From: a virus
Length of the DNA: 22,027 bases
Direction: 5' to 3' (one strand)
IMG/VR virus record: IMGVR_UViG_3300006100_000091
Span: 1 to 22,027 of that record
The notes below the pieces were generated by a model, which did not search any database, was not told the DNA's origin, and saw only the letters and a list, made by a program, of their open reading frames with translations. Within the stretch, counting starts at the first letter, position 1, and every line of letters begins with the position of its first letter. A program made the position numbers and the translations under genes. This document shows positions 11 through 5,655 of this stretch, piece by piece.

Positions 11-331
11 ATGAGAGTATGGAAAAAAATCTATATTCCATATTATACCCCTGAGCCTGAGCGCGAATTTAAGCGCAAAGACGGAACAACCATGACGGGC
101 AAGGAATTTAAAAAAATCCGGCGCACGTTTGGTTTATCGCAAGAAGCTATGGGTAGAACTTTAGCAGTGCCTCCGGCGCGTTATTCTCGCAGGTGCGTAG
201 CTTATTGGGAAGATGGTAAAAACAAAATCCCGCCCGCTGTAGAATTGCTCATGCTGATTTTTAGAGAGCGATTTGTTTTAATCCCCTCCAAAACTAAACA
301 TCGCTTCACCCGGACGGATGTAAGTCCTTAA
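11..331 (+). CDS. Helix-turn-helix (XRE-like) DNA-binding protein
   Basis: A 106-residue protein that I read as a small transcriptional regulator. Residues about 31-85 have the form of an XRE-type helix-turn-helix: a KEFKKIRR lead helix, the turn FGLSQEAMG, and a later helix with VAYWEDGKNKIPP, the phrase that follows the recognition helix in many antitoxin-type and phage HTH proteins. The N-terminal 28 residues are basic and aromatic. Only ten bases precede the ATG in the window and no ribosome binding site is visible there; the true start may lie further left, or at Met28. It is convergent with the helicase gene and overlaps its 3' end by 54 bases, so residues about 90-106 are read antisense to the helicase tail. 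The regulated target is not visible. The DNA-binding role is fairly safe, the exact family is not. Confidence 0.7.
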   Translation: MRVWKKIYIPYYTPEPEREFKRKDGTTMTGKEFKKIRRTFGLSQEAMGRTLAVPPARYSRRCVAYWEDGKNKIPPAVELLMLIFRERFVLIPSKTKHRFTRTDVSP

Positions 332-1765
332 TTCCTTGTTATAATTCAAAGTATAATCCCCTGCCTGTCCTATGAAATAATCATCACGGGATTTTTGCAC
401 CCTTATCAAAGTTTCACCCTCTTTCGGCCTATGCACAACTATTCCTAGATCAGGCTTGTTGCTCCAGTGTGCAGAATCAGCAATGTCATAAAGCGTTGGT
501 ATTCCATCGTTATATTTATCTTTCCGTTTCATTTTTGAAGGGTGGGCGACAATCATCATGTGAACATTGTATTTGCGGGCAAATTTTTTTAGCTGCCTTA
601 TTGCAAAGCCCGTATATTCTGTTTGTGTCATCGGCCCCCTATCGTGTTCCATCTCATTCCAAGGATCGACGACAAACATATCCACCCCATGCCTTACAGC
701 AGCAGCAGCCATTTTTTCGAGCAACCAGCCTAAAGTTACCTCGTCATCAATATTAGGCACAATAAACCTGAACTTTTCATCCATCCATTTATCAGCGTGA
801 GCAATCTCATCCGGCTGGGCAAGTTTAGGCCGCATTCCTAGAATCAATGTTCTTAGATTGTGCTTATGGTGCGTCTGGGGCGTTTGTTCAAAACTGGCAA
901 AAGCAACCCTCCAGTTTGAATTTTTAGCAATGTCATAAGTGATAAAATTGATAAACGTGGTTTTACCATGCGAAGGAATACCCGTGACCACCGAAAAATC
1001 GGCTTTGCGTATGTTAATCGGTATCACGTCAAGTTTGTGGTACTCCTGAGGAGGTAAAGGAGCTAATTCACTCATTTTGTAAACGCCACTTACTTCCACC
1101 CACTCCGCTGCTGCAATCGTTTCTAAAACTAAATCCCTTCCACCCTTAAGATAAACTTCGTTCAAGTCTTTCGTTCCTGCCGGGTATTTTACCCATAAAC
1201 AACGGTGCTTTCCTAACCTTAGCGATAGATCATGCAACAGGTTTGCACCTGCCTTGTCACCGTCAGCACAAATCACTATTTCACCATTTGCGGGGAAACC
1301 ATCCAAATAAGAGTATTTAACGCTGTCAGCACCTACCCTACTGGAGGGTGCTCCATCTGGCACTGAGCAGGCAAAAAAACCGCATTGTAGGGCTATTAAA
1401 CAATCCATCTCCCCCTCAGTGATGATTAAACGGCTATTAGGGGAGTTTTGCCAGTCGGTGATTGCGTTTTGATTGTAAAAACACTTAACCGCATCTTTTT
1501 GTTGAGTAAATTGCTTTTCGCCAGACAAAGTGCGAAATTTGCTGTTGACGTGTTCTTCGCCAATAAAGAAAGGAATTTCAATACATTCACCACCTGTAAG
1601 TTGACTTGAACTTCTCCACCCAAGCCGCGTTGCTAGTTCGAGGTCTATTCCCCTGTTCTCTAGCAATTCCGCTGCTTTCTGAGTGAGAACCCCCGCTGTA
1701 TCCGCAGTGGTGGCAGTTGAAAATGAAGCTTTGTCCATCGAGGGTGACTGAGAGGCATCGGTCAT
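278..1765 (-). CDS. Phage primase-helicase, Toprim plus RecA-like helicase (T7 gp4 type)
   Basis: A 495-residue replication protein expected to prime and unwind DNA at the phage fork. The Toprim fold spans about residues 110-200: the conserved glutamate is E117 in ITEGEMD and the acidic pair is D168/D170 in ADGDKAG. Residues about 250-495 are a DnaB/Twinkle-like helicase with Walker A GIPSHGKT at 262-269 and a Walker B-like strand ending in VVDPWNEME near 360. The sequence from V26 (VLTQKAAELLENRGI) is the linker that normally follows a primase zinc ribbon; the first 25 residues are low-complexity and read the zinc-ribbon codons out of frame. The start is supported by AAGGAG eight bases before the ATG, inside the upstream ORF. 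This resembles T7, where a full-length and a short helicase-only form are made from one region. The zinc ribbon lies in the overlapping ORF in another frame. Confidence 0.9.
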   Translation of the reverse strand: MTDASQSPSMDKASFSTATTADTAGVLTQKAAELLENRGIDLELATRLGWRSSSQLTGGECIEIPFFIGEEHVNSKFRTLSGEKQFTQQKDAVKCFYNQNAITDWQNSPNSRLIITEGEMDCLIALQCGFFACSVPDGAPSSRVGADSVKYSYLDGFPANGEIVICADGDKAGANLLHDLSLRLGKHRCLWVKYPAGTKDLNEVYLKGGRDLVLETIAAAEWVEVSGVYKMSELAPLPPQEYHKLDVIPINIRKADFSVVTGIPSHGKTTFINFITYDIAKNSNWRVAFASFEQTPQTHHKHNLRTLILGMRPKLAQPDEIAHADKWMDEKFRFIVPNIDDEVTLGWLLEKMAAAAVRHGVDMFVVDPWNEMEHDRGPMTQTEYTGFAIRQLKKFARKYNVHMMIVAHPSKMKRKDKYNDGIPTLYDIADSAHWSNKPDLGIVVHRPKEGETLIRVQKSRDDYFIGQAGDYTLNYNKELRTYIRPGEAMFSFGGD

Positions 1766-1862
1766 TTTTGTTTCTCCTTGTGTGAGAGCATTTAGGGCAA
1801 ATTGTTTTGTTATTTCCTTGCCTTAGGTTAAAAGTAATTCCAAAATCTGATGGTTTTTTCAT
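1587..1862 (-). CDS. Primase zinc-ribbon domain ORF, out of frame with the helicase
   Basis: A 91-residue ORF with the zinc-binding module of a T7 gp4-like primase: CPKC near residues 19-22 and CHHCGYSGG near 47-55, with the extra cysteine RCLSV between. This module recognises the priming trinucleotide. I start it at the ATG at 1862, which overlaps the stop of the upstream DUF6291 gene as ATGA, rather than at 1928, which would add 22 residues without family character. After CGYSGG the frame runs on for about 36 residues that look unrelated to primases. The expected continuation (VLTQKAAELLENRGI) is in the +1 frame in the helicase ORF. Either the domain is a separate short protein, or a +1 slip at the G run 1690-1694 gives a fused product of about 527 residues, or the read has one extra G. 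Confidence 0.75.
   Translation of the reverse strand: MKKPSDFGITFNLRQGNNKTICPKCSHTRRNKNDRCLSVTLDGQSFIFNCHHCGYSGGSHSESSGIAREQGNRPRTSNAAWVEKFKSTYRW
1688..1697 (-). other. Candidate +1 frameshift site joining zinc ribbon to helicase
   Basis: On the minus strand the zinc-ribbon frame reads AGC GGG GGT T. A ribosome slipping one base forward on the run of five G would next read GTT CTC ACT, giving CGYSG followed by VLTQKAAELL, a natural junction for this protein family. Removing one G from the run (1690-1694) would have the same effect, so a homopolymer error in the sequence is the main alternative. I see no in-frame stop or rare codon at the site that would force slippage. Confidence 0.45.
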
Positions 1863-2494
1863 AACAGATAACTCGGTGATTGATTGCGTTTTTTCTTGAT
1901 AAAGTCTATCGTTCTTTCCCAACCCCACCGCCTAAAAGCTATGTCAAAATGCTCGTATTTGTAATTGTATTGGGCGCAAGCTAAACGAAATTCCTCAATG
2001 AGAATTGGCAGATCACTAACTGCAATGCCATATTTTTTGCAAACTGATGTCAGGTCGTGGGTTTCTAATTTTCCCCTTTTCAATTCCCACTCCGTAAGAG
2101 TCATCTTCTTACTACTACCTTTATTAATTTTTTCTTTCTTACTTCCTTTATCATTATCATTATCATTATCACTATCACTATGGGCATGTTTTGGTACAAT
2201 CTGGTACCCACTGGTACCCACTGGATGCGACTGGATGCGACTGGTAATTTCTTCTTTCCACCTACTTAACGCATTGTTTTTATTTCTTTTGCATATTGCA
2301 TCATACCTTTCGCAATCCCTGTCCATCTGATTTTTGAAGTTGATAAACAAAGCCTTTAGTACACCAGAAAGTTGCACATTTCCGGTTTCATTGTACAATT
2401 TAATTGCTTTGAAAAGTTGCCCAGCTTGCGCGTCATCAAGTTCATCAAGAGCGCTTAATGAATCGACATAAAGAATAAATGATTTTTTGGTCAT
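1859..2494 (-). CDS. DUF6291-like phage replication protein
   Basis: A 211-residue protein placed directly before the primase-helicase. Residues 1-70 (KKSFILYVDSLSAL, then DELDDAQAGQLFKAI) match the N-terminal DUF6291 type found in phage replication modules. A charged linker at about 90-130 contains SDSDNDNDND and lysine-rich stretches. The C-terminal part (about 132-211) is helical, with aromatic FDIAFRRWGWER, and could contact DNA or the helicase. By position it corresponds to the initiator or helicase-loader slot of other phages, which is inference. The start has AAGGGAAAG just upstream. It overlaps the zinc-ribbon ORF by four bases (ATGA). The gene carries two repeat arrays, one out of codon phase, which suggest that the replication origin lies inside it. 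Confidence 0.75.
   Translation of the reverse strand: MTKKSFILYVDSLSALDELDDAQAGQLFKAIKLYNETGNVQLSGVLKALFINFKNQMDRDCERYDAICKRNKNNALSRWKEEITSRIQSHPVGTSGYQIVPKHAHSDSDNDNDNDKGSKKEKINKGSSKKMTLTEWELKRGKLETHDLTSVCKKYGIAVSDLPILIEEFRLACAQYNYKYEHFDIAFRRWGWERTIDFIKKKRNQSPSYLL
2148..2183. repeat. TTATCA hexamer array, AT-rich
   Basis: Four perfect TTATCA units (2148-2171) are followed by CTATCA and a degenerate CTATGG. The period is two codons and encodes the alternating D/N/S stretch in the linker of the DUF6291 protein. Upstream, 2113-2150, is a pyrimidine-rich and T-rich run. The block lies beside the 10-bp iterons and is what one would expect of a DNA-unwinding element, but it could be simple low-complexity coding DNA. 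Confidence 0.7.
2191..2250. repeat. Six 10-bp iteron-like repeats inside the replication gene
   Basis: Six consecutive decamers start with YTGG: TTGGTACAAT, CTGGTACCCA twice, CTGGATGCGA twice, and CTGGTAATTT. The middle four form two perfect tandem pairs. The period of 10 is not a multiple of three, so the encoded peptide (ITSRIQSHPVGTSGYQIVPK) is not repetitive; the repetition belongs to the DNA. About one turn per unit puts all sites on one helix face. Iterons inside an initiator gene next to an AT-rich tract are the layout of the lambda origin in gene O. I therefore read this as a probable origin; binding by the encoded protein is inference. Confidence 0.7.
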
Positions 2495-2981: not shown

Positions 2982-3301
2982 TGCTTTGCCAATATCTGCC
3001 CTTTAAGGCGCTCTAATTCAGAAACGTCATCTCTGCAAACAATGTACAGTCCTTTGTTTTTTTCTACAATCAGCTTGCGTCTTACCTGATCGTCCGAAAG
3101 AGGATTAGATTTTACCTTGCATTCAACTTCTACCCACCTTCCAAAAGGTGTCAGCGCAGTAATATCCCCAAGCCCCTTTTTACCAAAACGTATGTAATGG
3201 CCTTTGTCTGTTTTAATTGCGCCAGTGTTTTGCCTAATGACATCACAGCCCCACAAACAGAGAAGCTGAATACATGCGGCAACTAATTGGCTCTCGCTCA
3301 T
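2975..3301 (-). CDS. VRR-NUC domain nuclease
   Basis: A 108-residue stand-alone VRR-NUC protein of the PD-(D/E)XK superfamily, a class of structure-specific nucleases often encoded in phage replication modules. Visible elements are the N-terminal helix SESQLVAACIQLL, the basic strand RQNTGAIK, the substrate loop RFGKKGLGDITAL with the catalytic aspartate, and WVEVECKVK, which carries the E-x-K metal-binding core, followed by the helix LSDDQVRRKLIVEKN and the strand GLYIVCRD. Its length is typical for the single-domain phage form. Its ATG overlaps the stop of the ribbon-helix-helix gene (ATGA) and its end overlaps the HNH start, so the three are co-translated. Confidence 0.9.
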   Translation of the reverse strand: MSESQLVAACIQLLCLWGCDVIRQNTGAIKTDKGHYIRFGKKGLGDITALTPFGRWVEVECKVKSNPLSDDQVRRKLIVEKNKGLYIVCRDDVSELERLKGQILAKQW

Positions 3302-3441
3302 TTCTTTTCGCTCAATAAATACTCTTTAACCAGCACATCGCGTATATATTGTGCAGGGGTGGTTTTGTTGCGCGAAACAATTTTATCCAGCCATTTTTTC
3401 ATGTCGTCGTCTAAAAAAGTTTGCACTCGATGGTTAAACAT
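3298..3441 (-). CDS. Small ribbon-helix-helix (Arc/CopG-like) protein
   Basis: A 47-residue protein. It begins MFNHRVQTFLDDDMKKWLDK, a strand with alternating basic and hydrophobic residues, then two helices (DDMKKWLDKIVSRN and TPAQYIRDVLVKEYLL) separated by a short turn: the layout of an Arc/CopG ribbon-helix-helix dimer. The ATG at 3441 is preceded by GGAG at a spacing of six bases. It is the first gene of the leftward unit and stops within the VRR-NUC start (ATGA). Such proteins usually repress their own promoter, and the divergent promoter region with the palindrome at 3495-3508 lies immediately upstream, so it is the prime candidate for controlling the early switch. The regulatory target is inference. 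Confidence 0.75.
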   Translation of the reverse strand: MFNHRVQTFLDDDMKKWLDKIVSRNKTTPAQYIRDVLVKEYLLSEKK

Positions 3442-3461
3442 TATTTTCTCCAAAAATTGAT

Positions 3462-3489
3462 TTGACAGCTAGATTCTATCTGATACATT
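3462..3489 (+). promoter_or_regulatory. Rightward early promoter
   Basis: A perfect TTGACA (3462-3467) is followed after 16 bases by TACATT (3484-3489), which is preceded by TGA, an extended -10. It points toward the 53-residue membrane protein and the accessory/recombination operon. The expected start point near 3496 lies on the palindrome at 3495-3508. Confidence 0.65.
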
Positions 3490-3501
3490 CCGTGTTGTAA
3501 A
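3473..3501 (-). promoter_or_regulatory. Leftward promoter of the RHH/VRR-NUC/HNH unit
   Basis: On the minus strand TTTACA (3501-3496) and TAGAAT (3478-3473) are separated by 17 bases; each has one mismatch to the sigma70 consensus. It would give a leader of about 25 bases before the ATG at 3441. It lies face to face with the rightward promoter, and the two overlap by about 17 bases. Confidence 0.6.
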
Positions 3502-3508
3502 GTTACAA
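3495..3508. promoter_or_regulatory. Palindromic operator between divergent promoters
   Basis: TTGTAA-AG-TTACAA is a perfect inverted repeat covering the leftward -35 and the expected rightward start point, so one bound dimer could block both. A second, wider inverted repeat, GTGTTGT (3492-3498) with ACAACAC (3521-3527), encloses it. The likely binder is the adjacent ribbon-helix-helix protein or the helix-turn-helix protein at 11-331. Confidence 0.5.
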
Positions 3509-3538
3509 AACGATAATAACACAACACAAGGTGATAAC

Positions 3539-3700
3539 ATGGATAATGATTCTCTCATAGGATTTTTGTTTGGTTTGGTAATTGGGGTATTTCTTACCCT
3601 GATAGTTATTGTTGCTATTAGAGAGCAAGATTTAGATGCTTGCCGCAAAGAACATAACGTTTATTTTTGCAAAACCGTGACTGTTGTAGGTAAGCCATGA
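3539..3700 (+). CDS. Small single-span membrane protein, first gene of the rightward operon
   Basis: A 53-residue protein not recognised by family. Residues about 6-27 form one strong transmembrane segment (LIGFLFGLVIGVFLTLIVIV), followed by a short polar tail with two cysteines (DACRKEH and YFCKT). AAGGTG precedes the ATG by five bases. The stop overlaps the next ATG (CCATGA). It is the first product of the rightward promoter, a position that in many phages holds host-takeover or superinfection-exclusion proteins; that role is only a positional guess. Confidence 0.6.
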   Translation: MDNDSLIGFLFGLVIGVFLTLIVIVAIREQDLDACRKEHNVYFCKTVTVVGKP

Positions 3701-5281: not shown

Positions 5282-5410
5282 ATGTATCTCGTTAGTTTGC
5301 ATTCACAAAAGAGCGGAACCGGAAAAGCGAGCGTGCGCGAGGGGGATTGCGTGCTTACCCACTGGATGCCACTACCAGCGCCACCAGCAGCGCAGAAAGA
5401 GGGGGCGTGA
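5282..5410 (+). CDS. Short DUF551-like protein
   Basis: A 42-residue ORF beginning MYLVSLHSQ and carrying VREGDCVLTHWMPLPAPP at its end. The phrase THWMPLPxPP is the C-terminal signature of DUF551 proteins of phage early operons. The usual longer N-terminal body (a GWI..P.DG..VL type sequence) is missing, so this is a shortened version or a remnant. GAGG lies seven bases before the ATG, and the stop is shared with the next start (TGATG), so it is probably still translated and needed for coupling. Confidence 0.55.
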   Translation: MYLVSLHSQKSGTGKASVREGDCVLTHWMPLPAPPAAQKEGA

Positions 5411-5655
5411 TGAGATTGCTATATTTGCAAGGTATCGGTGAAAGTGCAAACGCGGTAATTATTGTTGCCGACAAAGTAGTTTCAATTCACCCGCGCATGG
5501 TCGGTGTAGATTTTAATGCTGTGCTAGAAACATACGATACTTACAAGGTAGAAGGCACGACCATTATTTGTGTAGGCGAAGCGTATATTGTGGCGAATGA
5601 ATTTGCTGATGTGTTGAAAATGTTAGAACAACAACCCACCGAGAGGAGCGAGTGA
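5410..5655 (+). CDS. Small phage protein of unknown function
   Basis: An 81-residue protein beginning MRLLYLQGIGESANAVIIV. I start it at the ATG at 5410, which has a GAGGGGG ribosome binding site and overlaps the preceding stop; an upstream TTG would add 21 residues that are only the shifted reading of the DUF551 gene. Alternating hydrophobic strands (AVIIVADKVVSIH, GTTIICVGEAYIV) suggest a small beta-rich fold, with a helical end FADVLKMLEQQ. It is part of the run of overlapping accessory genes. No family is recognised. Confidence 0.6.
   Translation: MRLLYLQGIGESANAVIIVADKVVSIHPRMVGVDFNAVLETYDTYKVEGTTIICVGEAYIVANEFADVLKMLEQQPTERSE

Follow-up and report, generated by a model that had tools for sequence, protein, structure and literature searches.

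A probable phage replication origin within the DUF6291 gene, the gene of its own proposed initiator

The window analysed here is a stretch of 22,027 nucleotides of viral DNA (positions 1 to 22,027 of IMG/VR record IMGVR_UViG_3300006100_000091). It carries a DUF6291 gene followed by two ORFs with similarity to replication proteins, all on the minus strand:

278-1765, minus strand: TOPRIM-DnaB primase-helicase (DnaB_C, E 2.5e-12; Toprim_2, E 1.1e-6; phrog_239, E 3.9e-70)
1587-1865, minus strand: small zinc-ribbon ORF, primase zinc-finger-like (weak phrog_47/239 match at model positions of about 40-100), whose ATG overlaps the DUF6291 stop codon (ATGA)
1859-2494, minus strand: DUF6291 gene, proposed initiator, 211 aa (PF19808, E 4e-20; relatives match replication-initiation families of PHROGs)
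1883-2098, minus strand: C-terminal helical domain (aa 133-204), the proposed replisome-recruiting part (AlphaFold2; in relatives, this domain has matches among O-like, DnaD-like and primosomal PHROGs)
2255-2482, minus strand: DUF6291 N-domain (aa 5-80), the proposed origin-binding domain (Pfam; AlphaFold2 pLDDT about 95)

The assignment to DUF6291 (PF19808) rests on amino acids 5-80, which score 72.2 bits against a gathering cut-off of 27.2. In the AlphaFold2 model the N-domain is composed of three helices (residues 10-18, 21-37 and 44-87), and the linker which follows is disordered (pLDDT about 45-50) and coincides with the DNA repeats described below. The C-domain of the window protein matched no family, and the C-terminal halves of several relatives match PHROGs annotated as replication initiation, O-like, DnaD-like loader and primosomal. 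Foldseek on the PDB, with a second look by VIA-align, returned no confident structural relative of the model, a known fold being still possible, while the structure search of a viral library recovered DUF6291 proteins, one DnaD-domain protein and replisome organizers.

The neighbourhood is a recurrent one. The principal ORF downstream of the gene was compared in 56 homologous loci; it matches the phrog_239 primase/helicase in half of them (28/56) and DnaC-like loaders in others. For Flavobacterium phage elemoA, the annotation of the two genes reads 'replication protein' and 'DNA primase/helicase'. The primase of the window looks split, with the zinc-ribbon ORF overlapping the TOPRIM-DnaB ORF in a different frame; the latter has its own AAGGAG ahead of the ATG at 1765, and the same sequence is present identically in two other contigs. 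Either these are two genes, which would somewhat resemble the forms of T7 gp4, or a frameshift has occurred close to a stretch of five G.

The linker region of the DUF6291 gene contains the following DNA elements:

2110-2169: least stable 60-mer of the entire 22-kb window by nearest-neighbour scan, spanning most of the hexamers and AT-rich DNA beyond them
2148-2181: hexamer array, proposed DNA unwinding element (GATAGT/GATAAT on the gene strand; peptide DSDNDNDND), supported by Tandem Repeats Finder and by block-specific codon bias in homologues
2182-2190: iteron-hexamer junction, gene strand ..ACATGCCCATAGTGATAGT, identical in one relative (L066)
2191-2250: six 10-bp iterons, on the gene strand AAATTACCAG, TCGCATCCAG twice, TGGGTACCAG twice and ATTGTACCAA (window 2250-2191)

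A first-pass annotation, made from the sequence without database searches, had described six decamers with two perfect tandem pairs at 2191-2250, beside four copies of TTATCA at 2148-2171, and had remarked that their period is out of codon phase and the peptide not repetitive. Direct reading bears this out. On the window strand, 2191-2250 reads TTGGTACAAT CTGGTACCCA CTGGTACCCA CTGGATGCGA CTGGATGCGA CTGGTAATTT in exact register; the sixth decamer has only CTGGTA in common with the others, and both 10-bp tandem pairs were also reported by Tandem Repeats Finder. The four TTATCA units are continued by CTATCA CTAT up to 2181, and the same program gives 5.7 copies of period 6 over 2148-2181. The decamers start in codon frames 1, 2, 0, 1, 2 and 0, so that all three frames are used, and the encoded peptide has no repeats. 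Across the 22-kb window, the iteron array is the sole 10-bp-periodic segment above threshold.

Part of the array, TACCCACTGGATGC, recurs as an exact copy of 14 bases on the plus strand at 5356-5369, in a 42-aa ORF (5283-5411) without a Pfam match. It was rejected as a second site: since it reads as Thr-His-Trp-Met and stands alone, it is probably due to coding or chance. A reading of the hexamers as a DnaA-trio was likewise discarded, as the orientation, judged by eye, does not fit. GC skew is uninformative on the origin, because its minimum follows gene orientation and the change near the array coincides with the orientation switch at about 3.4 kb.

For the first-pass annotation, homologues without any repeat at this place would speak against its reading; this test was run and did not refute it. 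The main source of homologues was a profile search with patterns taken only from conserved N-domain stretches, and the set is therefore unselected for repeats; one viral scan yielded 313 relatives. Cultured phages of marine Shewanella, Vibrio cyclitrophicus and Flavobacterium are among the relatives. Their linkers typically hold short words at near-multiples of 10 bp followed by a low-stability hexamer array, so that iteron-plus-hexamer arrays stay at this position in spite of changes in iteron sequence, linker peptide and reading frame. In the GGRPK class (defined below), pairwise core spacings cluster at 9-10, 19-20, 29-30 and 39-40 bp, the distance from one core to the next is mostly 9, 10 or 20 bp, and the last core lies 14-15 bp before the hexamers in 28 of 38 cases. 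Over 59 loci, the median stability percentile is the 2nd for hexamer blocks and the 81st for iteron blocks. Six deposited phage genomes were scanned for 10-bp arrays; the DUF6291 linker came out as the strongest in four of them and second in ZP9, and was not among the leading ones in RAP44. Two contigs near-identical to the window are identical to it over 2.2 kb, and population variation is for this reason uninformative.

Individual loci depart from the common layout. A gut-phage relative (L118) has no clear hexamer array, and Flavobacterium phage elemoA (about 2830-2900) has two repeats of about 20 bp (TCGCATAGCGATAAAAA) before the hexamers in place of the 10-bp units, which suggests that iteron length varies in the family. 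The annotation of Aeromonas phage 4_L372X splits the DUF6291 gene (2992-3680) in two, with a frame break near a GATAGT hexamer array which is consistent with slippage or sequencing error at the hexamers. Spirosoma plasmid NZ_CP056033 (about 2489-2830) also carries a DUF6291 frame, in which both AACCCA iterons and hexamers are present, and the collection's table lists no gene at the N-terminal part of this frame; this 17-kb replicon, listed as a plasmid, is perhaps a plasmid prophage.

Binding sites within a gene could also serve its own regulation. According to this explanation, the protein would repress its gene by binding it as an autoregulatory operator, and the AT-rich tract would merely encode a flexible linker. 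Sites placed inside the protein's own gene fit such a role, and are compatible with an origin too, but they lie about 250 bp inside the gene and not at a promoter, and the neighbouring genes are those of replication. Moreover, the hexamer array is conserved, locally unstable and written in codons unlike those of the rest of the gene: in hexamer blocks Ser is AGT in 213 of 226 cases against 160/824 elsewhere, and Lys is AAG in 89 of 118 against 488/1669. An operator is, on this evidence, improbable.

It may also be supposed that the region is a low-complexity linker peptide with tandem duplications made by slippage, devoid of any DNA function; the disorder predicted for the linker and the two perfect tandem pairs of the window speak for this. 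Synonymous codons were permuted within the gene, preserving both peptide and codon usage, and the observed 10-bp score of 26.9 was not reached in any of 20,000 permutations (maximum 19.7). The periodicity of the window is neither chance nor a by-product of the peptide, in agreement with the initial proposal that selection acted on the DNA, which had also set the 10-bp period in advance of the test. Of 67 non-redundant homologous genes, 41 have 10 bp as their best off-frame period; 39 reach P<0.05 individually and 28 fall short of it. In the 66 other genes of the homologous loci which served as control, the corresponding figures are 5 and 2.

The same conclusion emerges from the words themselves, although these were defined from the sequences in which they were then counted. 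The commonest, AACCCA, has 149 occurrences in 10.9 kb of linker, divided over the three reading frames as 57, 51 and 41, versus 22 in the remaining 35.0 kb of these genes. Proline codons track the frame, being CCA after Asn in 56/56 instances and CCC after Lys in 40 of 52 in linkers versus 3 of 50 elsewhere. Within a gene the four spacer bases are no more than 37% identical; recent slippage therefore fails to explain the arrays, and selection keeps the cores while the spacers drift. One word in three frames with codon choice to match, cores kept among diverged spacers and a conserved 9/10-bp phasing strongly disfavour a linker without DNA function, which is very improbable.

The basic motif that directly follows the core domain can be sorted into classes, and these correspond to the iteron words: GGRPK is paired with AACC[CG] in 39/39 genes, LIAxKR[YH] with TACCA in 9/9 and AGxGGK with AGCAA in 5/5. 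The class of the window, with a KRW motif, is mixed (GCAT, TACCA or none) and its iterons are the least uniform; 4 of its 11 genes have no recurrent word among those counted. Motif class requires 21 changes on the core-domain tree, which is poorly resolved. The motif lies next to the iterons in the gene, and linkage could therefore account for part of their tracking; the two may travel together as a cassette, which would fit a specificity module through which the protein would bind. A parallel for such a module has been published for the RepA protein of PLE (PMC8263062).

The repeats could instead act at the RNA level in an early transcript, as hairpins or as protein-binding RNA. Inverted copies such as AACCCAGTGGGTT recur, and one linker (L087) folds better than its shuffles (z -3.8), but the other seven of the eight linkers tested have z between -0.6 and -1.9, conserved RNA structure being mostly absent from this set, and an Rfam search gave no match. 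Spacing by helical turns and the adjoining low-stability tract suggest double-stranded DNA, which leaves the RNA explanation with very little likelihood. Some plasmid centromeres have repeats of about 10 bp, but a partition or packaging site with phased repeats is extremely improbable here, with primase/helicase neighbours and no recognised partition ATPase or terminase adjacent.

The locus is very probably a phage replication origin lying inside the gene of its own DUF6291 initiator, an attribution drawn from sequence and from comparison with known systems. Through its N-terminal helical domain and the basic motif, the DUF6291 protein would bind the six sites, which are spaced by one helical turn and themselves encode the flexible linker of the protein. 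In light of the anatomy and of its conservation, an ordered array of protein on a single face of the DNA is most likely; it would strain and melt the adjoining AT-rich hexamers, and the C-terminal domain would then bring the replicative primase-helicase encoded just downstream, so that replication would start at the array. Melting and helicase recruitment are extrapolated from the biology of lambda and of iteron plasmids (PMC7466680, PMC4081077). Least certain is whether the initiator 'loads' the helicase, because a TOPRIM-DnaB primase-helicase may partly load itself.

The initial comparison with lambda O holds in the anatomy, since N-domain, iterons, AT-rich tract and C-domain are followed by a helicase or loader gene. 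Repeated sites under DNA-level selection lie within the coding sequence of the proposed initiator, an easily melted AT-rich flank is provided by 2110-2169, and the helicase/loader gene belongs to the same cluster, all of which characterise the lambda-O type of organisation. Both systems have a linker between N- and C-domains and a next gene concerned with helicase recruitment. In contrast, the iterons of lambda are 18 bp, longer than the 9/10-bp-phased ones of DUF6291, the unwinding tract of the window is a hexamer array, and its next genes are a zinc-ribbon ORF and a primase-helicase in place of P. For the window protein, which matches DUF6291-type families only, no sequence relation to lambda O was found; the C-domains of some relatives match O-like PHROGs. 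In lambda, the origin lies mid-way in the initiator gene O, with an AT-rich tract flanking the iterons (PMC7466680).

Other replicons share parts of this design. For SPP1 G38P (oriL) and 80alpha ORF20 the origin is embedded, or proposed to be, in the replisome-organizer gene, as is proposed for the window, although the proteins belong to other families with no DUF6291 domain reported (PMC5499656). At RK2 oriV, Rep proteins bind iteron double-stranded DNA and single-stranded DNA of the unwinding element together (PMC4081077); a repeated unwinding element adjoins the iterons there too, but Rep is a winged-helix protein and the element consists of 13-mers instead of hexamers. The PLE satellite RepA and its origin differ in having a RepA_N domain and in belonging to a satellite family of one phage. 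A literature search, with most subscription journals outside its scope, retrieved only the lambda, SPP1, 80alpha, PLE and plasmid cases among related origins, and no paper naming DUF6291.

Intragenic origins are thus already known, and what is new is a real and well supported variant with a lambda-O type organisation in a family without assigned function. Many distant phages share this arrangement, and a role is therefore indicated for the whole uncharacterised DUF6291 family. More tentatively, and with a likelihood somewhat short of even, DUF6291 may be a large modular family of phage initiators in which the linker codons carry the origin, a swappable cassette of basic motif and 9/10-bp-phased iterons sets specificity, and the hexamers form a distinct unwinding element, possibly read in single-stranded form by the initiator. 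A family named only as 'unknown' gains a testable function, and in hundreds of uncultivated phages the probable origin can be located by means of the sequence alone. The pairs of initiator and iterons would offer a natural series for the study of how origin specificity changes under overlapping DNA and protein codes.
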